Shown here piece by piece: positions 1,744 through 61,465 of a DNA stretch of 64,000 nt. The position numbers and the translations under genes were made by a program. The DNA is from Naumovozyma dairenensis CBS 421 (lineage: Eukaryota; Ascomycota; Saccharomycetes; Saccharomycetales; Saccharomycetaceae), in assembly GCF_000227115.2 (NCBI RefSeq), contig NC_016487.1:620001-684000 (forward strand), read 5' to 3'. The number at the start of each line of letters is the position of its first letter. Positions within the stretch are counted from its first letter, which is position 1. The notes under the pieces are model-generated. The model had not been told where the DNA came from and made no database searches. It saw nothing but the letters and a program-made list of their open reading frames with translations.

Positions 1744-4718
1744 TAATAAATATTTTTTATAGTAAGTAAATAGAGAGTATAATAGAGTTTGAAATTTTAT
1801 CTAATTAAAGGAATGGTTTAAAACAATCTATATGATTGTATAGTGATAGGTAGTTGATTTGGTTATTTGGTTTAATTAACAAGTGTCACAAGAGAATAAA
1901 TACATACAAGAAAACCTTTGCAAGAGCGTAATGATTTATTAGCAGACTGTTAATCTTATATATATGTAAGGTTTTGGACCTTGGAGATAACAAAGAAAGA
2001 TACGATCAAGTTTTTTTTTATTGGCAAAGGTATGTAAAGTAAACAAAGGAATAATAGTAGATGAGATTCGGAATTCTATGGGTAAAGGGAATGACCTTTA
2101 TCATTTTTGCGGGATAGAGGAAGGATAGTGTCAGAAGAGATATGGATGGATAAGAAATCAGCCTTATTGCTCAAAGGAGATACAAATCCGACTGCTCAAA
2201 CTTGTCTGAATTCACCTTGTAAAAAAAGTTCCACATCTCTTTTGAAGGACAGATCGCCAAGATGTGTGACGCTAACAGAAAAGGCCATGGAAATTGATGG
2301 AAATATACTAACCGTGCCATGCCATGCCATATCTTGCCGTCTTCTTTCCCTCAATTTGGTGCGCAATTGAAATAATACAAAGGCGTGTTCGCACCAAAAA
2401 ATGTCAAACAGACGCAAACGATGTTTGTTGGTATATTGAACGCTGAGAAAGCCGCGCCTATTCCTACTGACACCCACTTGCCACACCCATAAGAGCTGTC
2501 CCGCCGCAATCCAAACAAAACAAAATATGGGCGAACCCTCTTGCCGTACTTAGCCGGCCGCCACGGCTCCAAGGTTTTCTTCAAGACGGCCCCCCCCCCC
2601 TCCTCGCTTATCCTGCGGGTACACCACAACGATAGAGGAAAAGAGGGTGTGTGTCAAAAAAGTGCCGCGTTATGTTTCAAACCATGGCTACTTACCCCTC
2701 ACTTTGAGGAGGGGCGATTATGTACTACGCCATTCATCTTCTTCTCCGAGACCTCGAGGAATCAGTCTCTTCCGATAGTTCGGGAAAGGCTGGTTTTCCG
2801 TTACCCGAAGACCGGTTTGGATATTTTTGCGTGGTTTCGTATTCGGAGTTCATACGTACATACCCAGGTGGAACAGAAGTAGGCTATATGTCAGTTGACC
2901 CAGTTGAGAGAGTTATTCACGAAGGTATTCTAACCTCTTACTCTTCTTGATGACACTTTTCCATTGTCTGTGCAAGTAAGAAAGATGAGGATTACTACTA
3001 CTCAAGTTCCCTTTAAAATGCTTGAGAAGACGTCACTAAAAAATAAAACTCCGGCAAACACCCTTTTTCCTCCTTCTTACTTTATTTCCTACGTACGTAC
3101 GTAAGACATTATTTGTAGAACCTTCCTTGGCATCTCTCCTTAGAAACTGGTGATCAGAAGGAATCCAGGTATACTTAGTAATGAAAGTCAAAGAAACAGC
3201 ATTAATCCGTCAGTTCAGATATTAACACGAATTTAACCAACCAGAGCCTATTTCGAGAGTCGGGTTTTTTCATAGTCTGTATACCAAGTGCTGCTACATT
3301 TTGAACATAACGTACATATTTGAGAGGATGTAAATAAGGGGGACAGTGTTTGTCATTTGGTATCTTAACCCTAAAAAAAAAAAAAAAAAAACAAACCTAA
3401 ACTACCTTGTAACTGTTTTTTAATACCTCGGTAACGAACTAAATGTGTTATGTAATGTCCTTTTTTAGAGCTACGGCGCTAAGTAGGTATAATTGTCTTT
3501 TTTTCAAGGACCAAGACTGATCTATTCAAGAGTACTGTAAATATCCTTTTGAATTGTTGACTACTGTCTCTTTACTTCATAGAAAATCAGAAATAGCGAT
3601 GTTCATCACAGAATAACATCGCTACCAACTACAAAATGTTATTCATTGCTAAGCAACAACTGTAACAATTCCATTTATGAAGTTAATATATTTAAAACTT
3701 CTTTGTAAAACTATTGCAACTTATGTGACGTCTAATTGACGTACATTATGAAGTTGTTGATTAATTGTTTATTTTTAGTTTCTAACCTTATTAAAATTAC
3801 CTTTCGTTCAAAGAATGCCAAATAAAAGAACATAAAATCTAAAGGTAAACAAATTTTTTATCCAGGATCCAAGCCTATCTATTCAACGATGCTCGGAGAG
3901 AGTATTGTGACGTTAATTTAGTTGCTCCAACCCATATCTAGGTTCTTAGACTTAAGGATGGGATAGTTGGGAGTAAATATATGTAGTCCCGATCAACGTT
4001 GTTCAATTAGACAACGTTGTGTGAAATATATAACTGGACAGCGTAATAAGATAGAAGACTAGAAACACTCCATTAACACATAAAATTTGTAATTCCGTTA
4101 TACTCTTTCCTACATTCTCCTTTCTGTTTTTTTTTTACAGACAAAACTTTAGGCAGATCATATGACCAATCCTTTCCCCAACTCCCTAAATAAAAAATAA
4201 TGATTTCCTGGTTATCAAAGGGAATTAAGCTCCTTCTTGGTTCCCAAACTTTGTAGACTAGTAGGTACGTCAATAAAAAGTTCCAACTTACAAAGTTCGG
4301 GCTCTACATTTAGAGCTCAAAAACAAAAACACATAAACATTATTTTATTTTTCAAATCTACATATAATTCAAAGAATTACATATTTCTTACATGAATGGA
4401 AAATTTTTCTTCCATTTTGACTATCATAACATAGTTGTGACACTTCAAGATTTCCTCCAGAAAATATAGAATCAAATAATTGATATATTGTGGCGGGAAT
4501 ATTTTATTGCGTGTGTACTGAAACGGGAAATAAGAAAAACCGGCAGATCTTAGAATAACGGCCTCCTTAAAATTGGGAAGTGAAGAAACAATCTCTCGAA
4601 AAATATATATAAATAGGAAGGGGAGCCATAATTTAACTTTACACAGAAGTCCCAATCCAGTTCTGTTTGATAAGTGTAGTGTCTCCCCCTTATGCTCAAT
4701 AAACTTCCACCATATTAA
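1744..4718. other. Gene-less 3 kb stretch upstream of DIP5 and left of the Ty element
   Basis: No convincing gene is seen; the open frames are short, overlap on both strands and have no recognisable protein. It must contain the DIP5 promoter (right of 1743). Visible features are a GC-rich patch at 2505-2625 with an 11-C run (2590-2600), a 19-A run (3373-3391), and two perfect short hairpins at about 3597-3628 and 4002-4027 that resemble LTR-end palindromes. It may be decayed transposon or subtelomere-like DNA, but no homology can be claimed. Confidence 0.6.
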
Positions 4719-5412: not shown

Positions 5413-8400
5413 CACATCAAATATGATTAATACGGCTCCAATTGAAAAAAGAGACTGGGCCGTTAAGCTATCCTCCATCATTCTCACTGATGCTACCGAG
5501 GATGAAACCTCTTATTCTACTTTGCTCAACAATCCCACTTTCCACTCATACCGGAAAAAGATGCTTGATCGTCTTGCTGCATCATTGATGGTCTCTATCT
5601 CACCATCTATTAAAGAAAAGATCCTAGATCGCTATGGCGACGATTTCTCCATCTCTACCGACCAAGTTACTAAGTTATTGGAGCGTAAAGCACCCAACTC
5701 TGGTACTGAGAACAATCAGGTCTTTATTGCTCATGGCAAATACAATGCAAAAAACAAGCACAAAACCTCGAATAGAGAATGTGCAGTTTGCAAGGGCCCA
5801 CATTCACTCGAAAACTGCAAAATTTTCAAGTCGAAATTTCCCCAAGCCCATATTTTCCAAAAAGCAAAGAAGAAAACCCAAATGAATACCTCTCATTATT
5901 CAGATGGTATGAATGACTCCTCTTGGATGGCCATCTCCGACTCTGCTACCACAAATTCCAATGCTACTTCTTCGTCCGCACTTTCCTCCAATCACTGGAT
6001 TTTTGACACCGGTTGTACCAGTCATATGACCCCTCATCGCTCTGCCTTCTCTGAATTCCATACTGATGTCTCTGGGTCCGTCAAGGGTGCTGGTGGTTCA
6101 GTTCGGATTAAAGGACACGGTACTGTTAAACTCAATGGTATCACATTGAATGATGTTCTGTATGTTCCTGATCTTCCAGTCAATCTAATCTCTATTAGAA
6201 AGGCTACTCAGACCTCCAAGAATAAGTTTGTTTTTACCAATGAGAAAGTTGACGTGTTCAACGAAAACCACCGTTTAGTCTTAAGTGGTTCCTTGTGTGA
6301 TGGTTTGTATGTCGTCACTGATGGTACAAATTCTAAAGTAAATACCAAAATCTATAAATATACAGCTAATTCAATCTCTTCTTCTGTTTATCCGCACGCA
6401 GCATTTTCTCTTATTTCTGACCCTCTGGGTCCCTCCTCCATTCCAAACCAAGATGAAGCTATCAAATGGCATTCCCGTCTCGGTCACCCTGGTTTTGAGG
6501 ATTACAATCGTTACGTATCTATTCTCAACTTACCTAAGTTGAAGACTCAGAATCTAACTTTATGTCCGACTTGCTCCTTAAGTAAAGGACTCATCTCTAC
6601 AGGTATCTTATCGACTCAAGAATACAGCTCTCCCCTTCAGCTTATCCAAGTCGATCTTTGTGGAAATTTTAGATATAATGAATTTCAAGCCCACAACTAT
6701 TTTTTAACAATTCGAGATGCTTATTCTCGCTACTACGCTGTCATCCATTTGAAGAACAAATCAGATGCTGCACAAGCACTAATTGACTGGGTTACTGCAC
6801 AAGAAAACTACTTCTCACACAGAGGCGGTTATAAAGTTGCTGCAGTTAGATCTGATAATGGGGGGGAGTTTTGCAATGACCAATTAAATATATTCTTCAA
6901 GAATAAAGGTATTCAACATCAACTAACTATACCACATCAAAGTTTCCAAAATGGGGGAGCTGAACGGGCACATCGTTCCATACAAGAAAAAGCTCGTTGC
7001 TTATTACTTGGTGGTCGAGTCCCTCCTTCATTATGGGCGGAAGCTGTTTCTACCGCAGTATATCTGTTAAACAGAACACCCATCCGAAGCCGTAAGTTCA
7101 AGATCCCTCACTGTGTGTGGTCTGATCTGCCAATCTCCAAGTTCGGTATTAAGCATTTGAAAACTTTCGGATGTGCCGCTTATGCTACGTTACCTCAGAC
7201 ATTGAGAGATGGTAAGTTTGCACCAACTTCGATTAGTGGTGTCATGGTAGGTTACGACTCCGATCACCGAGGTTATAGGATTTTCCACCCTCCATCCAGA
7301 AAAGTCTTTGTCTGTAGTCAAGTTAAATTTGATGAATCCATTTTCCCATTAGAACAGACAAAATCAGTTGAATTATCCCATGATTTTGCCACTTCCACCA
7401 TTTCAGGAGCACCACGTTATCCTCAATCTGGTAGCTCCATATTTGCTCCCAGAAGTATGAAGTTTCCCAAACCATCTATCCCTACAACAGACGTTAGCTC
7501 TGTTGATATTACTGGTAATATCTCATTACCATCCACTGGTACTAACGACAACGTTCCTCACTCTTTATCATTACCCAACTCACCAATTCCAGACGAAGGC
7601 TCTATTCATCAAGATGGTGATCATTTTATGGATGCACCATCTTCTCCTCCTTCTCATCATTCTACCTTTTCAGAAACATCTACAAGTCCAGCATCTGGCG
7701 ATGCAGTCCAAAGTTCATTATCGATGACCCAAAACCACATTGACAGATTAGAGACCACAATTAATGACTTGTCAGATAAAATTACCGCTCTTTCTGAACA
7801 ACATTCATCTTCCCAAGTCGATCCAATCTCTGATCTATCTCATGATCTGATGCAGAACCAAATTGAGACGTTATCTAACCAGGTCGGTAAATTATCCACT
7901 GAACTTCGTCAAAAAGAGCAAACTATTAGTCGCATGCGCCCACATAAAAAGGTTGGGAATCACCGAGTACAAACTACCTATAGAACTCCGAGAGAAAATA
8001 GCATTATCTTGGAAGAAAATGATGTGCCTCAGGCTCAGGTGACCAAAAGACGCCAACTTCCATCCACTGATCCACGAAGAACATTTAATTTTCTTTCAAC
8101 TCAACTCTCTACTATTGATTCCACAGATTTCTCTAGTGTCATTGTCCCACCTGGTATTCTGTATAACGACACGAATAAACCAATATCTGTTTCCACTGAA
8201 GAACTTCATATGCAAGCTGCCAGGTTCACAAGTCAAAACATGCCCAATGAACATTGGAAGCAAGGTCCTTTCCCAGTCGGAGGTAATAAAGCCATTCTTC
8301 CACCTGCTTCCGCTATTCCAGCTAACTCGATCATTCCAGGAGACACCGACAGGAATGACGTTACAACGAGAGTATTAACTGCTCCACCGATGCAGAATAG

Positions 8401-10015
8401 CACATCCTCTTCTTCTGGCACTTCTGGTGTTATTCTGGTCCATCACGCCTTGACTGCTATGGTCACAGCATTTTCATTTATTGCTGACAAGGTCCCAACT
8501 ACTTTCAAACAGATTCTTGTACATCCCGAGTCTGATAGTTGGCTCACCGCATGCCAACAGGAACTTCAAGCTTTCAGGGATCATGACATCTATGAATTGG
8601 TCCGCTTACCTTCTGGCCGTATACCATTAGGTACAAGATGGGTTTTTACCTTAAAAGACAACCATCGTCATAAGGCACGTTTAGTAGCCCAAGGTTTCAA
8701 ACAAGTTGAAGGGATTGACTACCAAGAGACTTTTGCTCCCGTCATTCGGTATGATTCTGTTCGTGTTTTTCTAGCTATTTCGGCCTGTTTAGGATTACGT
8801 GTACATCAAATGGATGTGGACACTGCATTCTTAAATAGTGAAATCGATGAACCAGTGTACGTTAAACAACCTCCTGGTTTTGAAGATCTACAACATCCTG
8901 ACTGGGTCTGGAAATTGAAAGGTGGAATGTATGGTTTGAAACAGGCACCTCTACTCTGGAATAAACACATTCATACTTCCCTTACTTCACTTGGGTTCAA
9001 TCGTCACCCAGGTGAGCACTGTCTATATTATAAGGACACGTCTGAAGGACCTGTTTTTGTTGCATTATATGTCGATGATTTGTTGATTGCTGCTCCCTCT
9101 CCCCGTATTATGAAACTTGCCAAACAAGCGTTGAACAATATTTACTCAATGAAAGATCTTGGTCCTATTAATAAGTTCCTAGGAACCAATTGTTCTCAAG
9201 ATAAAGATGGGAACATTACGTTGAAGATGACTGATTACATCACGAAAGCAACCGATGCCATGGATAATGAAAGTAAAAAACCAACTTACAATCCCATGTC
9301 AGGGGGTAAAGATTACTTCGATATTACATCTCCACCGGTTCAATCTATTAAAGCATACCAAAGCATCATTGGCCAATTATTGTTCATTGCTAATGCAGGC
9401 CGCCCAGACGTTGCCTTTCCGGTATCCTTCTTATCAAGATTCTTAAAAGATCCAAGAGAAGTACATATGGATGCTGCTACTAGGATCATGCGGTACTTAT
9501 ATACAACTAGAGATTATGGTATCAGATATAGGTCAAAATTAAAAAGGCAGCTGACTGTGTACACAGATGCCTCACAAGGTGCTGCATGGGACATGCCATT
9601 TTCCACAAGTGGTTATGCTACTTTCCTAGCTGGTGGTGCCATAACATGGTGTTCAAGAAGAATTAGATCCACAATATGCTTATCTTCCACTGAGGCTGAA
9701 TGCATAGCTGCAAGTGAAGCAGTATTAGAAACAATGTGGTTATATAACCTCTTAGAACATATGGGATACCCACTCTCAGAGAACCTATTGGTGATAGATA
9801 ATGAGCCTGCTATCAAACTAGCATCACATCCCATTCTGCACTCTAGGACAAAACATATTAAGTTAAGATATCACAAGATTAGAGAAGCTGTTGACGACGG
9901 CATCGTAAAAATTGAATATGTTAACACCTTGGACCAAGTTGCTGATATATTAACAAAAGCTTTACCCCAGAAACAGTTTAACCACCTACGTGATAAGCTA
10001 GTTTCCATGTGTTGA
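5393..10015 (+). CDS. Gag C-terminus + Pol polyprotein of Ty5-like retrotransposon
   Basis: A 1540-codon frame, open from 5360; the first codon given here (TTG) is not a real start, since translation would come from gag. Order by residue: nucleocapsid zinc knuckle CAVCKGPHSLENC (about 129-141, CX2CX3HX4C), aspartic protease FDTGCTSHM (about 203), integrase HHCC zinc finger WHSRLGHPGF...CPTC (about 359-395), integrase core with VDLCGNF, RSDNGGEF and NGGAERAHRS (all three acidic residues present), a long S/P-rich linker with a predicted coiled coil (about 781-848), reverse transcriptase with KARLVAQGF and YVDDLLIAA (about 1226), and RNase H with YTDASQGAAW, SSTEAE and IDNEPA. Integrase before RT makes it copia type. 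Pol looks catalytically complete. It ends TGA just before the purine tract. Confidence 0.92.
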   Translation: MSKIFRNTSNMINTAPIEKRDWAVKLSSIILTDATEDETSYSTLLNNPTFHSYRKKMLDRLAASLMVSISPSIKEKILDRYGDDFSISTDQVTKLLERKAPNSGTENNQVFIAHGKYNAKNKHKTSNRECAVCKGPHSLENCKIFKSKFPQAHIFQKAKKKTQMNTSHYSDGMNDSSWMAISDSATTNSNATSSSALSSNHWIFDTGCTSHMTPHRSAFSEFHTDVSGSVKGAGGSVRIKGHGTVKLNGITLNDVLYVPDLPVNLISIRKATQTSKNKFVFTNEKVDVFNENHRLVLSGSLCDGLYVVTDGTNSKVNTKIYKYTANSISSSVYPHAAFSLISDPLGPSSIPNQDEAIKWHSRLGHPGFEDYNRYVSILNLPKLKTQNLTLCPTCSLSKGLISTGILSTQEYSSPLQLIQVDLCGNFRYNEFQAHNYFLTIRDAYSRYYAVIHLKNKSDAAQALIDWVTAQENYFSHRGGYKVAAVRSDNGGEFCNDQLNIFFKNKGIQHQLTIPHQSFQNGGAERAHRSIQEKARCLLLGGRVPPSLWAEAVSTAVYLLNRTPIRSRKFKIPHCVWSDLPISKFGIKHLKTFGCAAYATLPQTLRDGKFAPTSISGVMVGYDSDHRGYRIFHPPSRKVFVCSQVKFDESIFPLEQTKSVELSHDFATSTISGAPRYPQSGSSIFAPRSMKFPKPSIPTTDVSSVDITGNISLPSTGTNDNVPHSLSLPNSPIPDEGSIHQDGDHFMDAPSSPPSHHSTFSETSTSPASGDAVQSSLSMTQNHIDRLETTINDLSDKITALSEQHSSSQVDPISDLSHDLMQNQIETLSNQVGKLSTELRQKEQTISRMRPHKKVGNHRVQTTYRTPRENSIILEENDVPQAQVTKRRQLPSTDPRRTFNFLSTQLSTIDSTDFSSVIVPPGILYNDTNKPISVSTEELHMQAARFTSQNMPNEHWKQGPFPVGGNKAILPPASAIPANSIIPGDTDRNDVTTRVLTAPPMQNSTSSSSGTSGVILVHHALTAMVTAFSFIADKVPTTFKQILVHPESDSWLTACQQELQAFRDHDIYELVRLPSGRIPLGTRWVFTLKDNHRHKARLVAQGFKQVEGIDYQETFAPVIRYDSVRVFLAISACLGLRVHQMDVDTAFLNSEIDEPVYVKQPPGFEDLQHPDWVWKLKGGMYGLKQAPLLWNKHIHTSLTSLGFNRHPGEHCLYYKDTSEGPVFVALYVDDLLIAAPSPRIMKLAKQALNNIYSMKDLGPINKFLGTNCSQDKDGNITLKMTDYITKATDAMDNESKKPTYNPMSGGKDYFDITSPPVQSIKAYQSIIGQLLFIANAGRPDVAFPVSFLSRFLKDPREVHMDAATRIMRYLYTTRDYGIRYRSKLKRQLTVYTDASQGAAWDMPFSTSGYATFLAGGAITWCSRRIRSTICLSSTEAECIAASEAVLETMWLYNLLEHMGYPLSENLLVIDNEPAIKLASHPILHSRTKHIKLRYHKIREAVDDGIVKIEYVNTLDQVADILTKALPQKQFNHLRDKLVSMC

Positions 10016-35188: not shown

Positions 35189-36475
35189 CCGATAAATATC
35201 AATCCTCTTGATGTGTATCAATGCCTACGGGTGAATAACATCAAGGTGAATTCTAAACTCCAGTTTTTAACAATACAAGGTGATAAACTGTTAACTAAAG
35301 AGCATAAATGGTGGATTCCACAAGAACAATACGAGATAACATTGTGGATTATATGGAACACACACATTAACAATGATATGCATCGTGGTATACAGGAAAC
35401 ACTTCGATGTATTAGGAAACGATACAACTTTGATGATCTCTATAAACTTACTCAGGTGGTTGTCAACTCTTGTAAAATCTGTCAATCGAATAAACCAACA
35501 AATTTTTCGATCTCAAACTACCGATATATCCCTACTCCTAGCCGACCACATATGATTATGAGTGCAGACCACATTACCGATCTGGATACTTCCAAAGATG
35601 GATATAATGAAATATTAGTGATAATGGATCTTTTCACCGGATATACATACTTAATCGCTGCGAAGAAAAAGGACACGGCAGAAGAGACATTCCAGAGAAT
35701 AGAAGAGAAACTTTGTTCACATGGCGGTTTACCCATCACGATGATAATCGACAACGGAACAAAATTCAAAGGTGAATTCAACAAAAATTTGTTCTGGCGT
35801 GTAATAAATAATTGGAATACTTCTATTCATAAAGCAAAGTCAAATGGTGCTAACGGACGCACGAATGGCATTATTAAACAATGTCTAAGAACTCATGGGG
35901 CACTAATGCGCCCACATTGGCCTCAACATCTAGCAGCTACTGAATTTTTTATCAATAGTAGGACAGACTTAGCAACACGTCGATCTCCACATGAGTTGAA
36001 ATATGGATATGAACCTGAATGGATAGATTCAAATAAACGTCTGGAAATGCCTAATACTGATACCAGAATACAAGTCATGTCAGATGAAGAATGGTATAAT
36101 TATATCCAAGAAAAGGTAAAACCAATTCAAGCCCTATTAGTAAAAAGTAAAGATAGAAACAAAAAGATGATTACCAACACAGGGAAACCAATGGTATTCA
36201 AAGTAGGTGATATAATATGCATTTCTGGACATGCATACGTTGCTAAAGGCCTCAAGGCCCTAATAGCTGTTTTTATAGGGCCTGCTGTTATTAAAAACAC
36301 ATTCTACAGGGTAAATATACTCAATTCAAGAATAGTACTTCATGTACATGCAGAATTCCCTGGAAAATTTATTAAGTCCATTGATACAAAACGGAAAAAA
36401 AAAAAAGGAAGTGCTGTTTATATATTAACGCGAGGTAATATATCACAAAATGGTGACATACGGTATAATTCGTAG
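35189..36475 (+). pseudogene. Ty3/gypsy integrase fragment without catalytic Glu
   Basis: A 429-codon open frame with no ATG start (stop at 35186-35188, first GTG at 35213). It has an HHCC zinc-binding domain (HINNDMH...CKICQSN), an rve core with first Asp in SADHITDL (35567-35569) and second Asp in IIDNGTKFKG (35750-35752), and a GPY/F-like C-terminus FIGPAVIKNTFYRVNIL. The third acidic residue should sit in a GQxER-type motif; here the codon is GGA (35855-35857, NGANGRTN), so the catalytic Glu is Gly. No gag, protease, RT or RNase H precedes it. It runs into an LTR start at 36412. It is a dead remnant, although the open frame is surprisingly long. Confidence 0.8.
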
Positions 36476-52303: not shown

Positions 52304-53050
52304 CTAAGCTCTCAAAACTTTGTCACCATCTTTATGATAAATCATTAAATATGCTGTGAATCCTTCACCATTTGGATCCAAATTACCCTGGGAATCACAT
52401 TCACCTTTACCAAAATGGAAAGTCAAATAATTTTTGAACCCAAAATATTCATAAACAGATTTTGCATGTTCACTAATCGCCTCCAAGATAATGGCACAAT
52501 TATCATCATCTGCTCTTTTTTGATAATATTTGAAAATGGACCTGACGGAACCTCTCACTTCAGGATGCCTTAAATCTTTCCCAATCATAAAAAGATAATA
52601 ATATTCCATCCCCACTGGTAAAACACTCAATTTCCTTTTCAACATATCATCGAAAAAAATCTTATTGAACTTATCATCATTTGTATAACTAACAGGTAAA
52701 TGTTTCCCAGGAATACTCCAAAGACTGACCGCATCAAAATCATTAGCCTCAGCTAATTCCCCACCTAAATCATGGTAACAAGCAGTATAATAATGAATCA
52801 TAGCGTTCACTCGGGCTCTCGTTGTAGGTTCATCTAATGGAATGTTGAAAAATTTCTTCATCAAATAATCACTACATGGAGAAGTGAAAGCAACACATAA
52901 AGTTTGAGCAACTTTTTCAACATCGTTAGTGATATTAAGACCTGCAATTCCTGTGTTTGATGATGCGTCATCACCTTCTTGAATGAAAGGAGATTGAGCA
53001 TCAATTATTGGTGCTGGAACAATCAAAGTTTTCGTCTTTGGAATGGCCAT
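52304..53050 (-). CDS. Predicted GNAT-family N-acetyltransferase
   Basis: A 248-residue protein with no orthologue that I can name. The C-terminal half looks like a fungal GNAT domain: YYLFMIGKDLRHPEVRGSV in the position of motif A (beta-4/alpha-3, normally L-x-V-x-P-x-x-R/Q-G-x-G/A), followed by AIILEAISEHAKSVYEYFGF (the alpha-4 'Y-x-x-x-G-F' region). The N-terminal half has DFDAVSLWSIPGKH, matching the 'A-x-x-L-W-x-P-P-G' segment of such proteins. The acetyl-CoA loop RGSVRS is unusual because the second glycine of R-G-x-G is replaced. Substrate unknown. It is inserted between ARO8 and KEX1, which are neighbours in S. cerevisiae. Confidence 0.7.
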   Translation of the reverse strand: MAIPKTKTLIVPAPIIDAQSPFIQEGDDASSNTGIAGLNITNDVEKVAQTLCVAFTSPCSDYLMKKFFNIPLDEPTTRARVNAMIHYYTACYHDLGGELAEANDFDAVSLWSIPGKHLPVSYTNDDKFNKIFFDDMLKRKLSVLPVGMEYYYLFMIGKDLRHPEVRGSVRSIFKYYQKRADDDNCAIILEAISEHAKSVYEYFGFKNYLTFHFGKGECDSQGNLDPNGEGFTAYLMIYHKDGDKVLRA

Positions 53051-53465: not shown

Positions 53466-55760
53466 ATGGTCAATAATTCAAAAACATCATGCAAGAGAAG
53501 CATACTGAAATTCTTTCTTTTAACTACACTTCTAAATGCTTGTTCCAACTCTAAGGCTTTGAAATCAAAAGATGAATACCACGTCGCATCTGAATTAATA
53601 CCGGGTTTATCGTCAATAAAGGATACATCATTGATCCCAGAGATGTTTGCAGGTCAAATCCCATTACAATCTCCAAATGATGATTCAGAAGATGAGGATG
53701 GACGTAAATATTTTTTCTGGAAGTTCCATGATAAGAAGAAAAATCATGATTCTATAATCTTTTGGTTGAATGGTGGTCCAGGTTGTTCATCAATGGATGG
53801 CGCTCTTGTTGAATCAGGACCATTTAGAATAGATTCTAGCGGGAAAGCTCATTTGAATGATGGATCATGGCATACGAGAAGTGATTTGGTTTTCGTTGAT
53901 CAACCTGTAGGAACTGGATTTTCTACTTTTACTCATCATCAAAACCAAATCAATCAGAATCAGAATCAGAATGAGAATCAAAACAACCAGAATCAGAATG
54001 AGAATCAAAACAACCAGAATCAAAATGAGAATCAAAATGAGAATCAAAACGAGAAACGTAACATGAATATGATATATGATAAAGATTTAGAAAATGTCAC
54101 CGCACATTTCATGCAATTTTTAGAAAATTATTTTACGATTTTCCCAGATGATGTATCTAAAAAAATATTATTAGCTGGTGAAAGCTACGCAGGACAATAC
54201 CTCCCATTCATCGCAAAGGCAATGTTAGATCATAATTTATCATTAGAAACTGATCCTGGTGAAGATTCAGAATATAACATTCAGGGATTATTAATAGGTA
54301 ATGCTTGGATTGACCCCTCTATACAATCTCTATCATATTTACCATTTGCCATGGAAAAAAATATAATTACGAAGGATCATCCTAATTTTAAAGATTTAAT
54401 GAATGCTCATGAGAATTGTCAAAAAGTTGTCAATAGCAATCAAGATGTCTTTTCATTCGATGAATGTGATAAGATTATAAATCTATTATTACAATATACA
54501 AGAGATTTATCCAAGGGTACACCTGAAAATCAAGTTTGTTTGAACGTTTACAACATCGACTTGAAAGATTCTTATCCATCTTGTGGAATGAATTGGCCCG
54601 TAGACATACCAAATGTTAGTAAATTTTTCAATACTCCCGGTATTATGGAAGCTTTAAATATTGACTCTACTGAATTGGACTCCAATTCCAATTCCGATTC
54701 CAATTCTAATTCTCATTTCCCTAAATGGCAAGAATGTAATAGGAACGTTCTAAATAAATTAACAAATCCAATTTCAAAACCTTCAATCAACCTATTCCCT
54801 GAATTAATGCATAATGGTATAGAAATCGTCTTATTTAATGGTGATAAAGACTTAATTTGTAATAATAAAGGGATATTAGATGTCATCAACAATTTAAACT
54901 GGGGCGGTACTAAAGGTTTCACCAACGATATGGAACAATATAAATGGATTCATGAAGATTTGGATGCTGGGTACGTTCAATATGATAAAAATTTAACTTT
55001 TATCAATGTTTATAATGCATCACATATGGTACCTTATGATAAAGCTTTGGTAAGTAGAGGAATCGTGGACATTTTCCTTAATAATGTTGAATTTGATGAA
55101 GACACTGCAACACTAATAAGTTCGAATGAGTTAGAGGAAAATTCTAAAGAATCTGATAAAGCAAATAAAGAAACTCAGAATGAAAGTGACAGTGAAAGTG
55201 ATGACGAAAGTGACAACGATGATGATAAGTCCGATGAAGAGGAAAGTGCACCTGAGGACGACGCTGATAATGACGACACAGATGACTATACAGAAGAAGA
55301 AAAGAACGAAGAAGGGTATTCGGCATTCAGAAAGGCGACTGTAGGTATTTTCATATCGTGCACCCTTATTTCTATCTTTTACATCATTTTCATTCATGAT
55401 CGTATATTCCCAAAGAGGAGTATATTTAGTAGATTAGATCAAACACAATCACAACAACCAAAGACTGTATCATGGGCAGATGATATTGAAAATGCGGATC
55501 TAGAAGCAGGATGGGATAATGATGACTTTGATGCTGAAGCTGATGTTGATTTTTCAGATTTTGATGACGATGATGACGAAGCCGCTCATGGTACTGATGA
55601 TGCTGAGAGTGGAAATAGTATCAATAATACAGGTGAAGAGGATGCTACAAACGCTAAAGGTAAGAAAACGAAGCCAATTCCAAAGCCTAAGAAGAAAGGG
55701 AAATATTCAAGTGTTCCTAATACAGATATGGATGAATCATTTGAAATGGATGATTTTTAG
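53466..55760 (+). CDS. KEX1: Kex1 carboxypeptidase, trans-Golgi serine protease
   Basis: A 764-residue (729 in S. cerevisiae) type I membrane serine carboxypeptidase of family S10 that trims basic C-terminal residues from K1/K2/K28 toxin precursors and alpha-factor in the late Golgi. It has a hydrophobic signal peptide (about 15-28), WLNGGPGCSSMDGAL (oxyanion), GESYAGQYLP with catalytic Ser, NGDKDLICN (Asp) and NASHMVPYDKAL (His). An acidic stretch (about 555-615), one TM segment (about 628-646, VGIFISCTLISIFYIIFIH) and an acidic cytosolic tail follow. An Asn/Gln/Glu repeat (residues ~160-197) is inserted right after VDQPVGTGFST. ARO8-KEX1-POX1 order is as in S. cerevisiae. Confidence 0.95.
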   Translation: MVNNSKTSCKRSILKFFLLTTLLNACSNSKALKSKDEYHVASELIPGLSSIKDTSLIPEMFAGQIPLQSPNDDSEDEDGRKYFFWKFHDKKKNHDSIIFWLNGGPGCSSMDGALVESGPFRIDSSGKAHLNDGSWHTRSDLVFVDQPVGTGFSTFTHHQNQINQNQNQNENQNNQNQNENQNNQNQNENQNENQNEKRNMNMIYDKDLENVTAHFMQFLENYFTIFPDDVSKKILLAGESYAGQYLPFIAKAMLDHNLSLETDPGEDSEYNIQGLLIGNAWIDPSIQSLSYLPFAMEKNIITKDHPNFKDLMNAHENCQKVVNSNQDVFSFDECDKIINLLLQYTRDLSKGTPENQVCLNVYNIDLKDSYPSCGMNWPVDIPNVSKFFNTPGIMEALNIDSTELDSNSNSDSNSNSHFPKWQECNRNVLNKLTNPISKPSINLFPELMHNGIEIVLFNGDKDLICNNKGILDVINNLNWGGTKGFTNDMEQYKWIHEDLDAGYVQYDKNLTFINVYNASHMVPYDKALVSRGIVDIFLNNVEFDEDTATLISSNELEENSKESDKANKETQNESDSESDDESDNDDDKSDEEESAPEDDADNDDTDDYTEEEKNEEGYSAFRKATVGIFISCTLISIFYIIFIHDRIFPKRSIFSRLDQTQSQQPKTVSWADDIENADLEAGWDNDDFDAEADVDFSDFDDDDDEAAHGTDDAESGNSINNTGEEDATNAKGKKTKPIPKPKKKGKYSSVPNTDMDESFEMDDF
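53945..54055 (+). repeat. Minisatellite inside KEX1 encoding N/Q/E repeats
   Basis: Two exact 27-bp units (53963-53989 and 53990-54016), flanked by degenerate copies, encode NQNENQNNQ-type repeats. In frame, so length changes would keep KEX1 open. Confidence 0.85.
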
Positions 55761-56102
55761 TTCAAACAAACAATAGATAATTTATGTAGAACAACAACTC
55801 ACATCAAGTTCAATTTTTTTTTAATTTGACACTCTCCATATGACAACTGGAGTCTTTTCAATTAAAACCATGATCGGAGGGCGCTACCGTCAGATTATTA
55901 GAATATGTCACAGATGAAAAGTCTCCTATGGAAGCATATTTAAACTTATAACAATGTTAAAAAAGAGAAGTGTGAAGTGTATGGCAATGCTAGCTATTTG
56001 CAAGTATAAAAAATAAATAAGAATAGAGAAGTTTTCCGTGATTATATATATATATGCTATGCAAGACAAACTTTTCTTTTTCTGTTTCCTTATTCCGTTT
56101 TT
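55761..56102. other. KEX1-Gag gene convergent intergenic region
   Basis: No LTR, polypurine tract or gene is recognisable; AT-rich with a TATATA run at about 56044-56054. Confidence 0.5.
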
Positions 56103-57167
56103 TTAATCATAAGAAAGTGGGGAAGGTTTCCTAATACCTCTTGCCCTACACATCTTTTTAGGATGACCTTTCCTCAAACATATATTACAAATGTTTTGTG
56201 CTGGATCATATATATTATCTTTGGGCATTTTCCTTGGGACGTTTAAAGTTGAAGCGCTTAATGCATAAGGTTGAGGTGTATAAAGCTGATAATTGTTATC
56301 TTCGGGGACATATTTATTGTTATTTTTTACAGCATGGTTGCTAGGATCATTTTTTCTTCCATGTCTTGGATTATAATTACCCTTTGTTGTGGCTGCTGTA
56401 GGTGTTGTTGCTTCAGCAGTTGTTTGGTGTAAATTTTTGTTTCCGTACCTGCTAGGTACTGTTCTGTTTCCGTTTGTACCTTTGGAAAGGAATGGATTTT
56501 GTTCTAAATATGTTTCTGCCTCCCTGGCAATGGAAAGAACCAATGCCCAAGTCAATTCAATTTGTAAATTTATGATTTTTTTCTGAAAAAATGACTTATA
56601 TGAAGGTTTCAAATTTCTAATAAATTGACAGATCATTCCATTATTTGAAATGAAATTATCAGGTAATTGATTATACAGTTCTTCAAATTTAGAAATATAT
56701 TCCCTAATACCTCCCGTTCCTTGTATTATCATAGTAAACTCAGTCCATAAGTTGACCAATTTGTCAAAGTCGGTATGGCAATAATAATGCATCAAATCAT
56801 TGATGATTCTAGAATATGATAAAGTTCGCTTACCTTTGGTATCAGAAATGTAATTTTGTAACGACTCATATAACGGGGTGGTTAACTGCCGAGATAATAA
56901 ATATATTTTACCGTCATCTTCAGTTATATCATTTTCTTGGAAGGTTACATTGAGGTCCCAAAGAAAGGCTTTGAATTCTAGTTCAATTTTTGTGATGGCG
57001 GCTAATTTTTTTTTGTTTCCATTATTATTGTTGCTATTATTATTGGAAGGGAATTTATACCCAAGATCTATTTGATCTAGAAAGTTTTGCTTTTTTAGTA
57101 GAGGAGCCGGGAAAGTGGTTTTACTGTCATCTTCATCGATAATCGTAATAGGTTTATTCATAGACAT
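56103..57167 (-). CDS. Orphan Gag-like protein with CCHC zinc knuckle (Ty3/gypsy type)
   Basis: A 354-residue intact frame with ATG start. Residues about 60-235 look like a retrotransposon capsid (FKAFLWDLNVTFQENDI, YLLSRQLTTPLYESLQNY, LVNLWTEFTMIIQGTGGIRE and YISKFEELYNQLPDNF, and ICQFIRNLKPSY). The Thr/Asn-rich, basic linker is followed near the C-terminus by a retroviral zinc knuckle CNICLRKGHPKKMCRARG (CX2CX4HX4C). No protease, RT or integrase follows, and I find no LTRs on either side. The frame is undamaged between KEX1 and CHO1, unlike the shattered Ty3 relics at 34.6-36.5 kb, so maintained function (domesticated Gag) is plausible. Alternatively it is a recent Gag-only fragment. Confidence 0.75.
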   Translation of the reverse strand: MSMNKPITIIDEDDSKTTFPAPLLKKQNFLDQIDLGYKFPSNNNSNNNNGNKKKLAAITKIELEFKAFLWDLNVTFQENDITEDDGKIYLLSRQLTTPLYESLQNYISDTKGKRTLSYSRIINDLMHYYCHTDFDKLVNLWTEFTMIIQGTGGIREYISKFEELYNQLPDNFISNNGMICQFIRNLKPSYKSFFQKKIINLQIELTWALVLSIAREAETYLEQNPFLSKGTNGNRTVPSRYGNKNLHQTTAEATTPTAATTKGNYNPRHGRKNDPSNHAVKNNNKYVPEDNNYQLYTPQPYALSASTLNVPRKMPKDNIYDPAQNICNICLRKGHPKKMCRARGIRKPSPLSYD

Positions 57168-57810
57168 TGTTTAATCAGCAGATTATTCAATTAAGAGAGG
57201 ACGGGAAGAATAATTGTACAATAAAAAGTATCGTAGTTCAAAAAAACTGGCTCGTGTTAGGTATGTGTTCTTCAAGAGAATAAAAATATAAAAAATAATG
57301 TGTAAATTCCTACCTCTAGCATATATATTCTTAAGGAGTTGGGTTTCTCAGTGCTCAAGTAACTAGATATTGAACTCCATGATATATACTATTATTTTGG
57401 AATCTTTCCTTCCCATTGTTCGAAGGCCTTTTTAAGATCTACAAGTACGCCTGGTAGCGCCGCCACATATACAAATTCATAAATATTACATACAAATATA
57501 ATACAATATAATAATTTGTATTTTGTATTCAAAAGTCTTTTAATGAATAAATAAATGAAATGATTTGAAAAAAAAACGAGAATTAATGTTCCCGGTTGAA
57601 TAGAAACTAAAATATGGAATGAAAAAATATATATTGGCGTAATGGTATATTGTACATTTATCTCTTTATTTATATATTTATTTATTTACACACTGATAAA
57701 GAAAGGAAAAACTGAAACAAGCGAAATGGGGAAAGAAAAATGTGTTTAATTTCTGAATGAATTGATGGAGCAACCAAAAAAAAACTGTGAATAAAGCTGA
57801 GCCAATTGAT
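57168..57810. other. Gag gene promoter / CHO1 3' region
   Basis: AT-rich. TGGTAGCGCCGC at 57452-57463 is complementary to the 3' end of initiator tRNA-Met (a Ty1/Ty3-type primer-binding site); see findings. No LTR is discernible. Confidence 0.5.
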
Positions 57811-58722
57811 CTATGGTTTTGGAATTTTCAAACTCTTTGAGATCATACCACAACCATGAATAAAGAAAGTAAGTACAATTGGGTGGAATTCTAAGATTTG
57901 ATCCTTTCTAACAATCCCTAATGGCATATTATCAAAAATCATCCCATGTGCAACACAATAAGCCATACCAAACACTAAAACCAAAGTGGTTGGCATTGGG
58001 AAACCTTCAAAATATTTAGATTTCCCCTTCTTATCCTTTGGTAATTGTCCTACAGTTACGTTGAATCTAGCTAATCTTGTAATACCACAAAGTACGAAAA
58101 ATGACAAGACAAACACATCGAAAGTAGTTTGTAACCCAATGGCGAATGCGATGGAAGCAGGAGCGACACCGAATGAAATCAAATCAGCTAACGAATCTAA
58201 TTCTTGACCCATTAATGAGGATCTGTTTCTTAATCTTGCGACTCTCCCATCTAAGAAATCAAAACACATTCCTAATATTATAAAGAAGTGAGCACGTTGT
58301 ACATAATGCGGTTTACCTGTTAAAGTAAATCTTAAACATGAAATGATGGAATAAAACCCAGAAAACCCATTTAACATGGTGATGTAATCTGCCATGTGTA
58401 AGTTTCTAATCATACTGAAATGGTATTTGTCACTTGTGAATTTTTCAATATCATTCTCATTGGGTGGAGCTAATGGTGTTGTATCTAAAGAGAAGATACT
58501 TGATGTTCTTTTTCTTAATATCTTACCCTCATAGGTTTCCTTGTCTAAGTAAGACGATGAAGATGACTGGGAATCGGAGGAATCAGTGCCACCATTATTA
58601 TTGTCTTGATTTTTGTTGTGTTTTTGTTTCTCTTTTTCTGAGGTGCTTAAAATTGGGACATTCATTGAATCTTGTTGTTGTTGTTGTTGTTGTTGTTCAG
58701 TACGATTTTTCAAATCAGTCAT
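57811..58722 (-). CDS. CHO1: Phosphatidylserine synthase Cho1
   Basis: A 303-residue (276 in S. cerevisiae) ER membrane enzyme that makes phosphatidylserine from CDP-diacylglycerol and serine. The CDP-alcohol phosphotransferase signature is complete: DFLDGRVARL...GQELDSLAD (D-x2-D-G-x2-A-R-x8-G-x3-D-x3-D, about 154-179). TM segments surround it (for example LSFFVLCGITRLARF, TTLVLVFGMAYCVAHGM). The N-terminus has a poly-Gln run (CAA/CAG, 58672-58697 region) and Ser-rich stretch, longer than in S. cerevisiae. Upstream, AATGTGAAAT resembles UAS-INO. In S. cerevisiae CHO1 neighbours GAL83. Confidence 0.97.
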   Translation of the reverse strand: MTDLKNRTEQQQQQQQQDSMNVPILSTSEKEKQKHNKNQDNNNGGTDSSDSQSSSSSYLDKETYEGKILRKRTSSIFSLDTTPLAPPNENDIEKFTSDKYHFSMIRNLHMADYITMLNGFSGFYSIISCLRFTLTGKPHYVQRAHFFIILGMCFDFLDGRVARLRNRSSLMGQELDSLADLISFGVAPASIAFAIGLQTTFDVFVLSFFVLCGITRLARFNVTVGQLPKDKKGKSKYFEGFPMPTTLVLVFGMAYCVAHGMIFDNMPLGIVRKDQILEFHPIVLTFFIHGCGMISKSLKIPKP

Positions 58723-59179
58723 TGTTTGTTATTCACACGTAAAACTGTGCGCAATTTTGAGAATATTAGTTCCTAGAAGATATCACAGAGTATTGGACTG
58801 TATATATGTTATATCCTCTGAACGTGTATTCTTGTTTTGTAACTGTTGTTCTCTAGGTGCATTGCATTACGTTACATCTTCTATAAAATTACGTATAGCT
58901 TTGAAATGTGAAATTTCACTCTTTTTGTGCGTGTGAAAAATTTACAGACATATACTGTAATATTCGTACGTAAATGGATTATCAACTTGATGGTGAATAA
59001 GAATAAGAATAAGAATATAGAAGATTCATACAGTCGTTAATATACATAAAAAAGTATAGATTATATAATAAATAAATAGAGGGAAGAATATAATATATAT
59101 GAAAGAATAATACCAAAAATAGATCACAAAGTGAAAAAAAGAACAAAAATGGAAGAGAAAAATGTAGACAAGTATGTCA
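58723..59179. other. CHO1 promoter / POX1 3' region
   Basis: Contains AATGTGAAAT (58905-58914), 9 of 10 to the inositol/choline-responsive UAS-INO (CATGTGAAAT), inside a 12-bp palindrome GTGAAATTTCAC (58908-58919), about 185 bp before the CHO1 ATG. No other feature is seen. Confidence 0.45.
58905..58914 (+). promoter_or_regulatory. UAS-INO-like element (Ino2/Ino4) before CHO1
   Basis: AATGTGAAAT differs from the consensus CATGTGAAAT at the first base, which weakens the E-box. CHO1 is the classical UAS-INO gene in S. cerevisiae; use here is inferred. Confidence 0.35.
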
Positions 59180-61465
59180 CTATTTGTTCAACATGGATAA
59201 AATATCTTTATTTGAACTACCTCCTAATTTAGCGTCGAATTCAAATCCTCTTGTCAACATATCGGATAAAATCTTATGATAAGGAGCAATACCGGCACCA
59301 TCTTTCTCCACAGGATTATTCTTTACGACTTCATTGAAATAATTATGATAGATATCACCGTCGTAATAGCCAATTGGAGCATTAATCATTGCATCAGGTA
59401 ATTTGAATGAATCAGTCAAAGCGATACAATCTTTCCTTAATTTTGGTAACAATTCTAATAATTTTGGTTGAATGATTTTGGAGATGTCGTTTGGTGTTAA
59501 GATCTTAAATTGTTGGAATTCACCAGAATGTTTATCGATGAAATAGATGGAGAACAATTTATAAATGTTCCACATTGTCTCCTGAGTATATTGATCGTTA
59601 ATGAATGACTTATCATGGGGATCATTATTTGTTAACTTATTATGATATGTTTTTAACATGGAATGAATAGCATGGAATTTCGAAACCATAACTAATAATT
59701 TCGAAACACTATCAACATCTCTAGATCTTTCAATCGATTTCCCAATGAAAGCTAAAATCTTAACCAAACTAACTTCCCAAATTTTGGTGTAACTATAAAG
59801 GTCATCATCATCGATAATACTTGTAGAGTCACCAGATGGGGTGAAAACTTTCATGATAAATTTCGGATTTAAATAATTGAATGAATCCTCATCTAATGAA
59901 TTGTTAAATTTACCCTTTGTTGCGGAATCAACGAATTTTTTCAAAATGGATTTAGCAGAAGTTAAAGATAAGATATTGTTATCACCTTCCCAAGTACATT
60001 GAACAACCCAATCATCATACCCTTTACCGAAAGCATTATATTGAGAATAACCGTGACCACCACAAGTTTGTCTTAATTCATCAATCAAAGTAGAGATCAA
60101 CCAAGTATTAGTTGCCTTTAATGATGCACTATCAATGAACAAATTCTTCAATTTTTCACTAACAACTTTCAACCCATTAGCGTTAGCAGGAGATGAAGAT
60201 GAAACTTTATACAATTCATCTAATGTAGAATAATAAGTATCCATCAATTTGAACGCAGCGGGAGAAACCAAATATGGTATAGTCAATTGTGGTAAGACAC
60301 GATATTGATGTAATGGATAATCGATCAACTGTAATTCCGTAGAGTTTTTATTTGGAGCGAATTGTTGTCTTCCTACGGCATATCTTGTAGCGATAGTAGC
60401 AAATTTGGAACCGAATCTAAAAGAGTCCATAACCATATTAACTCTACCACTTAACAAAGCACTATAACCTGAAATTTGATCCAATTGAGGTTGAGTTTTG
60501 ACAGTAACTTTATCACTACCATTCTCAGAGGGAATTACTTTAGTAAATCTACTTAACATATATTCTCTTGGGATGATAACGTTTCTAAATTGAATCCATC
60601 CATTATCAATACCGTCTCTACCCATCTTGGATCCAATATCACCAATGGAGATTCCAGGTAACAATTGTAAAGTTTCCAAATCTCTCAATGGGACCACGAA
60701 TGTCTTAACACCGTAATCTTTCCCTTCTACGAGTAATCTTGCGTAACAAACGGTATGAGTTGCAGAATGAGCAGCACCTCCAATCCACCATTTTGTTGCG
60801 GTCAAATCTGGAGTATTTATCACGAATGAATCCAATTTAGAATCATAAGTAGCTGTAGTTTGTAATTGAGCCACATTAGAACCGTGACCTAGTTCAGTCA
60901 TGGAGAAACAACCGTATATTCCCTTTATGAATGCGGCACCACGCGTTTGTAACCAATATTTGATTTGTTCATCTGTACCGTTACCTTTTATACAATTACC
61001 GAATAGTCCTAAATGGACACCAACTCTTGTACCTAATTGAGGGTCTATGTTTGCTACGAGAGATAGACGCTTGTCAAATAATGAGATGTCTTTATTTGTC
61101 AAAGGAAGGACAGAGGAAGAAGATGAAGATTGGAGTTGTTTGATCAGGTCATTGTCACGGAACTGAGCTCTAACTGTTTTGATGTCATGTTCCATGTATG
61201 TGGCTAATCTTGCTATTTTCTTTGCTGTAATTTCTCTTTGTTGGTCCTTTGTTTGATCGTAATATTTGGTGTCTGTTTGTAAGATTGGATCATTGACGAT
61301 TTGATCTATTAGTTGATGAGTTAGGGATTGTTTTTCTGGGTTCGATTCTAAGAAAGTATTTATTTCATCGATTTGTAGTTTAGAATCTTGTCTTTCTTTG
61401 TTTATTAATTTTTGTGGGATCAAGACGGGAGAGTCCTTTGTGTTTACTGTTGATAATCTTGTCAT
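59180..61465 (-). CDS. POX1: Peroxisomal acyl-CoA oxidase
   Basis: A 761-residue (748 in S. cerevisiae) FAD enzyme that catalyses the first step of peroxisomal beta-oxidation. FAD/substrate loops are GCFSMTELGHGSNVAQLQT (about 185-203) and TKWWIGGAAHSATH. Arginine-rich VGRQQFAP and the C-terminal GGHGYSQYNAFGKGYDDW are conserved, followed by catalytic Glu in CTWEGDNNILSL. It ends ILSMLNK, so it has no SKL-type PTS1, as in S. cerevisiae Pox1, which enters through Pex5 by an internal signal. The promoter has a perfect oleate response element. It is flanked by CHO1 and GAL83, which in S. cerevisiae are adjacent on chromosome V without POX1. Confidence 0.97.
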   Translation of the reverse strand: MTRLSTVNTKDSPVLIPQKLINKERQDSKLQIDEINTFLESNPEKQSLTHQLIDQIVNDPILQTDTKYYDQTKDQQREITAKKIARLATYMEHDIKTVRAQFRDNDLIKQLQSSSSSSVLPLTNKDISLFDKRLSLVANIDPQLGTRVGVHLGLFGNCIKGNGTDEQIKYWLQTRGAAFIKGIYGCFSMTELGHGSNVAQLQTTATYDSKLDSFVINTPDLTATKWWIGGAAHSATHTVCYARLLVEGKDYGVKTFVVPLRDLETLQLLPGISIGDIGSKMGRDGIDNGWIQFRNVIIPREYMLSRFTKVIPSENGSDKVTVKTQPQLDQISGYSALLSGRVNMVMDSFRFGSKFATIATRYAVGRQQFAPNKNSTELQLIDYPLHQYRVLPQLTIPYLVSPAAFKLMDTYYSTLDELYKVSSSSPANANGLKVVSEKLKNLFIDSASLKATNTWLISTLIDELRQTCGGHGYSQYNAFGKGYDDWVVQCTWEGDNNILSLTSAKSILKKFVDSATKGKFNNSLDEDSFNYLNPKFIMKVFTPSGDSTSIIDDDDLYSYTKIWEVSLVKILAFIGKSIERSRDVDSVSKLLVMVSKFHAIHSMLKTYHNKLTNNDPHDKSFINDQYTQETMWNIYKLFSIYFIDKHSGEFQQFKILTPNDISKIIQPKLLELLPKLRKDCIALTDSFKLPDAMINAPIGYYDGDIYHNYFNEVVKNNPVEKDGAGIAPYHKILSDMLTRGFEFDAKLGGSSNKDILSMLNK

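Follow-up and report, generated by a model that had tools for sequence, protein, structure and literature searches.

An intact Ty3-type Gag reading frame between housekeeping genes of Naumovozyma dairenensis, a candidate domesticated capsid gene

Introduction

Does a Gag frame that stands open between two housekeeping genes of the budding yeast Naumovozyma dairenensis represent a capsid gene kept by the host, or is it what remains of a retroelement? Domesticated Gag genes are familiar from animals, Metaviridae capsids among them (PMC11011659), and one Ty1-type case, DRT2, has been published for Saccharomyces cerevisiae (PMC10951436). DRT2 is described as a domesticated Ty1' Gag consisting of a truncated Ty1/copia-type CA-CTD (PMC10951436). 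The original prediction expected any yeast counterpart to be new; DRT2 precedes it, and a full-length Ty3-type Gag would differ from DRT2. Among the papers listed by the literature search, there was no report of a domesticated Ty3-type Gag in a budding yeast. Here, the locus was analyzed within a 64,000-nucleotide stretch of the N. dairenensis genome (the window), and the chances that the frame encodes a host-retained (domesticated) Ty3-class Gag are judged to be about even.

Results

The frame and the domains recognized in it are as follows.

56103..57167 (-), intact Ty3-type Gag open reading frame (ORF), 354 amino acids (aa), calculated 40.8 kDa, pI 9.2
56775..56987 (-), capsid N-terminal lobe, about residues 61 to 131
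56499..56768 (-), capsid C-terminal lobe, about residues 134 to 223
56148..56189 (-), zinc knuckle CX2CX4HX4C, residues 327 to 340, from the sequence and two Gag alignments

The longest ATG-initiated ORF in 60 order-1 Markov copies of the window reached at most 224 aa, with a mean of 117. The Pfam domain PF19259 (Ty3_capsid) matches residues 64 to 223 with 57.6 bits (cut-off, 29.1), and Retrotrans_gag scores 20.8 bits, under its cut-off of 24.1. The knuckle, C327-X2-C330-X4-H335-X4-C340, lies in a basic tail (residues 224 to 354; pI 10.0), so that the ORF combines the capsid domain and the CCHC knuckle in a basic nucleocapsid tail that characterize a Ty3/Gypsy (Metaviridae) Gag. The prediction of a full-length, undamaged 354-codon Ty3-type Gag with this knuckle is borne out by the intact ORF, the PF19259 score, and the knuckle residues. 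Compared on its own with Ty3, the protein gives an E value of only 0.017; a profile of five Gags of this genome, with the 354-aa Gag first, matches the Ty3 chain of 6r22, 6r23, and 6r24 over the capsid and the knuckle (E value of 5.5e-38). In a low-confidence structural model, the best matches of the predicted fold are the Ty3, Arc, PEG10, and Ty1 capsids, with the C-lobes of Arc and PEG10 and the CA of dArc1 ranking among them. The protein also contains the CA-CTD, as do factors of the DRT2/p22 type.

The Gag ORF is flanked by the following genes.

53466..55760 (+), left neighbor, KEX1-like serine carboxypeptidase (Pfam), convergent with Gag
57811..58722 (-), right neighbor, CHO1-like CDP-alcohol phosphatidyltransferase (Pfam), in the same direction as Gag

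These Pfam assignments agree with the predicted location between housekeeping genes, and the gap upstream of Gag, its own, is 643 bp. The gene order by Pfam is MCM6-type helicase, aminotransferase, serine carboxypeptidase, Gag, CDP-alcohol phosphatidyltransferase, acyl-CoA oxidase, and AMPK beta subunit. A 248-aa ORF without a Pfam match lies between the aminotransferase and carboxypeptidase genes (52304 to 53050, minus strand). In S. cerevisiae, we take the order to be MCM6, ARO8, KEX1, POX1, and SIP2, and CHO1 presumably adjoins GAL83; on this assumption, the Gag would sit within an otherwise ancestral order. On the left, the window has no tRNA gene closer than 10 kb, and on the right, the remaining 6.8 kb of the window contains none. 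Insertion immediately 5' of Pol III genes is typical of Ty3 (PMC8632968), and locus L057 of this genome fits such targeting, its direct repeat starting 14 bp from a tRNA-Gln gene.

The original prediction held that the Gag stands alone, without LTRs, protease, reverse transcriptase (RT), or integrase. No Pol similarity was detected by tblastn in the flanks (57100 to 59200 and 55700 to 56200) with 16 Ty3-type queries, a set that leaves aside L043-type and copia-type Pol. The matches at E values of <0.1 came from the ends of the Gag itself, from its zinc knuckle, and from two AT-rich alignments crossing a stop codon. The strongest upstream match, to the Gag of locus L051 (E value of 0.006; 28%), was rejected, as it crosses a stop in AT-rich sequence. 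Downstream of Gag, the motifs DTG and DSG are absent in the three sense frames. There are no direct repeats of ≥30 nt in 55000 to 60000, and no other match to the flanking DNA was found in the genome, a search that does not prove rarity. For LTR remnants, eight LTR or upstream pieces were each compared with 200 shuffles of each flank. Upstream, one of the eight scored above every one of the 200 shuffles, on an ATTT-rich stretch, and was dismissed as a low-complexity match; downstream, 79 of 200 shuffles reached the best score. On Gag's own strand, no primer-binding site with up to three mismatches occurs in the minus strand of 57168 to 57810. The locus thus shows none of the adjacent Pol (PR, RT/RNase H, and IN), flanking LTRs, and same-strand upstream primer-binding site of an autonomous Ty3/Gypsy element. 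Flanking LTRs found on closer alignment had been named in advance as evidence against the prediction; the repeat search and the eight queries detected none. The isolation of the Gag stands in that no Pol and no LTR was detected beside it, and is qualified by one of two short motifs.

57452..57463 (+), TGGTAGCGCCGC, 12 nt, identical to the presumed primer-binding site in this genome's other elements
55880..55888 (-), 9-nt piece of the primer-site motif downstream of Gag, a 9/12 match to the full motif that may be due to chance

TGGTAGCGCCGC lies 285 bp upstream of the Gag ATG on the opposite strand. It occurs once in the window as an exact match (0.0003 expected), and 18 sites carry it with up to three changes (5.9 expected). 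We take it to be the complement of the 3' end of the initiator tRNA-Met. A scan for the core of the motif covered 19 sources. The same 12 nt were found just upstream of a Gag and on its strand at L055, L058, L059 (second copy), and L010, and within the start of the Gag frame at L013. At L057, a relative of L013, the LTR repeat ends at 3498 and a diverged site follows 2 nt later, a position that identifies the motif as the primer-binding site. The core also turned up at two places in the window, within a tRNA-Cys gene at L050, in an element at L053 on the opposite strand, and, in diverged form, ahead of the first Gag of L059. Across the genome, 91 sites match a related 12-mer with at most one change, 13 of them exactly, compared with 36 sites for the reversed control. 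At L057, the Gag frame of a full-length element begins inside the 5' LTR repeat (2937 to 3498) and crosses the primer-binding site (L057:3418-3510). The motif at 57452 to 57463 points away from the 354-aa Gag and is therefore not its primer site in the present orientation. Its exact match shows that some retroelement debris is present in the KEX1-CHO1 interval.

This debris favors the explanation that the ORF is an ordinary, functionless relic, the Gag of a lost AT-rich Ty3-type family that a deletion or an incomplete insertion cut off from its LTRs and Pol, too recently for the frame to have broken. However, so recent a loss should leave LTR or Pol pieces or sister copies, of which none were found, and tRNA genes are absent from the 10 kb on the left and the 6.8 kb on the right. 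A relic of this kind is a possible explanation, though a somewhat doubtful one.

Copy searches covered one assembly (13.53 Mb in 11 contigs). By protein search, four Gag pieces besides the ORF itself were found, with 23 to 33% identity, and no close copy; over alignments, its identity to the other Gags aligned is about 16 to 24%. PF19259 has at least 20 matches in the genome, at least 15 of them over the cut-off, and the 354-aa Gag is tenth by score among the matches listed. In this assembly, it has the single copy, the open frame, and the lack of a surrounding element expected of a domesticated Gag. Elsewhere in the window, the Ty3 sequences had been described as shattered, a description that is left with a single Ty3-type integrase ORF of 365 codons (35378 to 36475, plus strand), whose end lies 43 bp short of a tRNA-Gly gene; the window's other large ORF of element origin (5423 to 10015) is of the Ty1/copia type.

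Other Gag frames occur in the genome without a nearby Pol. At L050 (L050:4742-5869; C7, about 1,414,540 to 1,415,670), an open 375-aa Gag frame, NDAI_0G05700, lies between SPC42-like and WD40 genes, 86 bp from a tRNA-Cys gene; it looks younger, given its element-like GC3s (GC at synonymous third positions) of 0.342. Two members of a Ty3-like family, L051:4060-5607 (C10) and L052:4659-5612 (C2), carry intact Gag frames of 317 aa each, which share 68% identity with a dN/dS of 0.26 (NG86) or 0.30 (YN00). At L051, Gag is followed by a protease-like frame with DTGA, which has no Pfam match and a weak similarity to element proteases (E value of 0.001); no RT was detected at either locus. The pair was considered as a second domesticated Gag and rejected, since broken relatives on C4, C5, and C11 make the family look mobile; it is possibly a non-autonomous Gag or Gag-protease element. 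At L064:1014-2387, with L043 (C1, about 913,300 to 917,950), a 457-codon frame occupies the place of a Gag, with protease-like and RT sequence directly downstream. It is absent among the 20 Ty3_capsid matches listed, its Pol has close relatives on C7, and it is perhaps a divergent Gag type.

The open frames at L050, L051, and L052 indicate that an open orphan Gag by itself is no proof of domestication in this genome, and they are consistent with a relic. The L051/L052 family, intact on C10 and C2 and broken on C4, C5, and C11, with its dN/dS of 0.26 or 0.30 and no detected RT, also raises the explanation that the 354-aa ORF is a non-autonomous mobile unit made of Gag alone, or the sole survivor of a mobile family of low copy number, with selection acting on its mobility and not on a benefit to the host. 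No sister copy of the 354-aa Gag, whole or broken, and no surrounding repeats were found, which speaks against such a unit, and this explanation is very improbable.

Composition bears on how long the ORF has resided in the host. Its GC3s is 0.262, compared with a mean of 0.249 (standard deviation [SD], 0.036) in 35 host genes chosen by hand, 19 from the window and 16 from fetched loci, and a mean of 0.356 (SD, 0.034; range, 0.299 to 0.405) in 10 other Gags of the genome, which are non-independent (L055, L056, and L060 are one family, and L051 and L052 are another). The ORF thus lies at z values of +0.36 against the host genes and -2.8 against the Gags. None of the 10 Gags has a GC3s as low, which a relic does not readily explain, and 1 of the 35 host genes reaches the lowest Gag. 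Under simulated neutral decay, the frame was broken at a median divergence of 0.5 to 1.2%, with a 99.5th percentile of 4.4 to 11%. Amelioration from a Gag-like ancestral GC3s would take ~2.0 synonymous substitutions per site at the median and 0.43 at the 5th percentile (P[<0.11] = 0.014), after 1.4% of the draws, those with an ancestor below equilibrium, were dropped. Together, GC3s and frame survival argue for constraint on the Gag, provided that its parental family was not itself AT-rich, a condition that is weak. In a common measure, the GC3 is 0.284 for the L057 Pol, 0.295 for the window integrase, and 0.282 for the 354-aa Gag. Since two element Pol ORFs are host-like in this respect, an AT-rich parental family would give the same signal as long residence, as the relic explanation supposes.

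Searches of about 5.8 billion proteins and of viral contigs, at a limited sensitivity that requires candidates to share exact 5-residue words, yielded no orthologue. Besides the Gag, they gave NDAI_0G05700 and a single distant protein of Gag-like type (P0003). This result counts toward a relic and against domestication, although at such sensitivity it does not establish that orthologues are absent.

Discussion

The evidence for domestication comprises the intact 354-codon frame and knuckle, the host-like GC3s, the capsid-lobe matches, the distant tRNA genes, and the failure to find a close copy, a flank match, or a Pol remnant. On the other side are the failure of the limited-sensitivity search to find an orthologue, a possibly AT-rich parental family, the kinship among the 10 Gags, and the nearby primer-site debris. 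The two sides leave the domesticated-capsid candidate proposed originally at roughly equal chances of being right or wrong: its intact frame, lack of close copies, host-like third positions, and absence of detected Pol all fit such a capsid.

If the Gag is host retained, an ancestral Ty3-type element would have inserted in the KEX1-CHO1 interval and would then have lost its LTRs and Pol, outright or by erosion, while selection kept the Gag frame. The protein would presumably be expressed, its capsid lobes would still self-associate, and its tail would bind RNA. Its most likely use would be co-assembly with Gag from the parental Ty3 lineage, poisoning the particle lattice in the way that Drt2 and p22 act on Ty1 subfamilies. 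Restriction of the parental lineage by lattice poisoning may account for about half of the probability given to domestication. Drt2 restricts Ty1' and p22/p18 restrict canonical Ty1 by lattice poisoning, each being subfamily specific (PMC10951436), and Drt2 and p18m discriminate even between subfamilies (PMC12530519). With such discrimination, the 16 to 24% identity makes restriction of the Ty3 elements now present unlikely. No parental element with a matching Gag was found in the genome (the nearest Gag pieces have 23 to 33% identity), an absence that would be expected if restriction succeeded, and equally if the parent disappeared by chance.

The non-restriction share of domestication falls to an Arc- or PEG10-like cellular role in RNA binding or carriage. 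Such a role is in keeping with the complete CA and basic CCHC tail, whereas Drt2 is a truncated CA-CTD (PMC10951436), and with restriction having no evident present target in the genome, as no close-Gag element was found. It presupposes expression, assembly, and RNA binding, all putative properties of the 354-aa Gag, and is unlikely taken alone. Beyond sequence and predicted fold, the mechanism of a domesticated Gag is a proposal; the reading as a domesticated Gag is plausible and has gained some strength, at about even odds. It is slightly short of an even prospect that the ORF would be the first full-length Ty3-class (Metaviridae) host capsid gene of a budding yeast, self-assembling and RNA binding, which outlived its element as a block to reinvasion or an analogue of Arc and PEG10.

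Should this be true, a full-length Ty3-type Gag would add to the known domesticated capsids, the animal Metaviridae ones and the Ty1-type one in yeast, and an Arc-like capsid gene would be available in a yeast that is easy to work with and allows rapid assays of deletion and retromobility. Among known systems, the 354-aa Gag resembles Ty3 Gag3 of S. cerevisiae (Metaviridae) in its Ty3_capsid domain and CCHC nucleocapsid and differs in being longer, with an Asn-rich N-terminal stretch, no detected LTR or Pol, and no tRNA gene close by. NDAI_0G05700, named an uncharacterized protein in the database, is likewise a full-length Ty3-type Gag frame of N. dairenensis without a nearby Pol; unlike the 354-aa Gag, to which it has 16 to 24% identity, it adjoins a tRNA gene and has element-like GC3s. 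DRT2 and p22/p18 are also Gag-derived open frames, and DRT2 too stands apart from a whole element in a yeast genome, but they are of the Ty1/copia type with the CA-CTD only, whereas the 354-aa Gag is Ty3-type and full length, with no LTR detected. DRT2 has LTR pieces and tRNA genes at its borders, is absent from S288C, and has a reported dN/dS of 0.84 (PMC10951436). The animal Arc, dArc, PEG10, PNMA, and RTL genes are domesticated Metaviridae capsids, and the Arc and PEG10 C-lobes and the dArc1 CA resemble the fold predicted here; they have orthologues and measured selection (PMC11011659), and the searches described above found no orthologue of the 354-aa Gag, a candidate that would bring a capsid of their class into a budding yeast.
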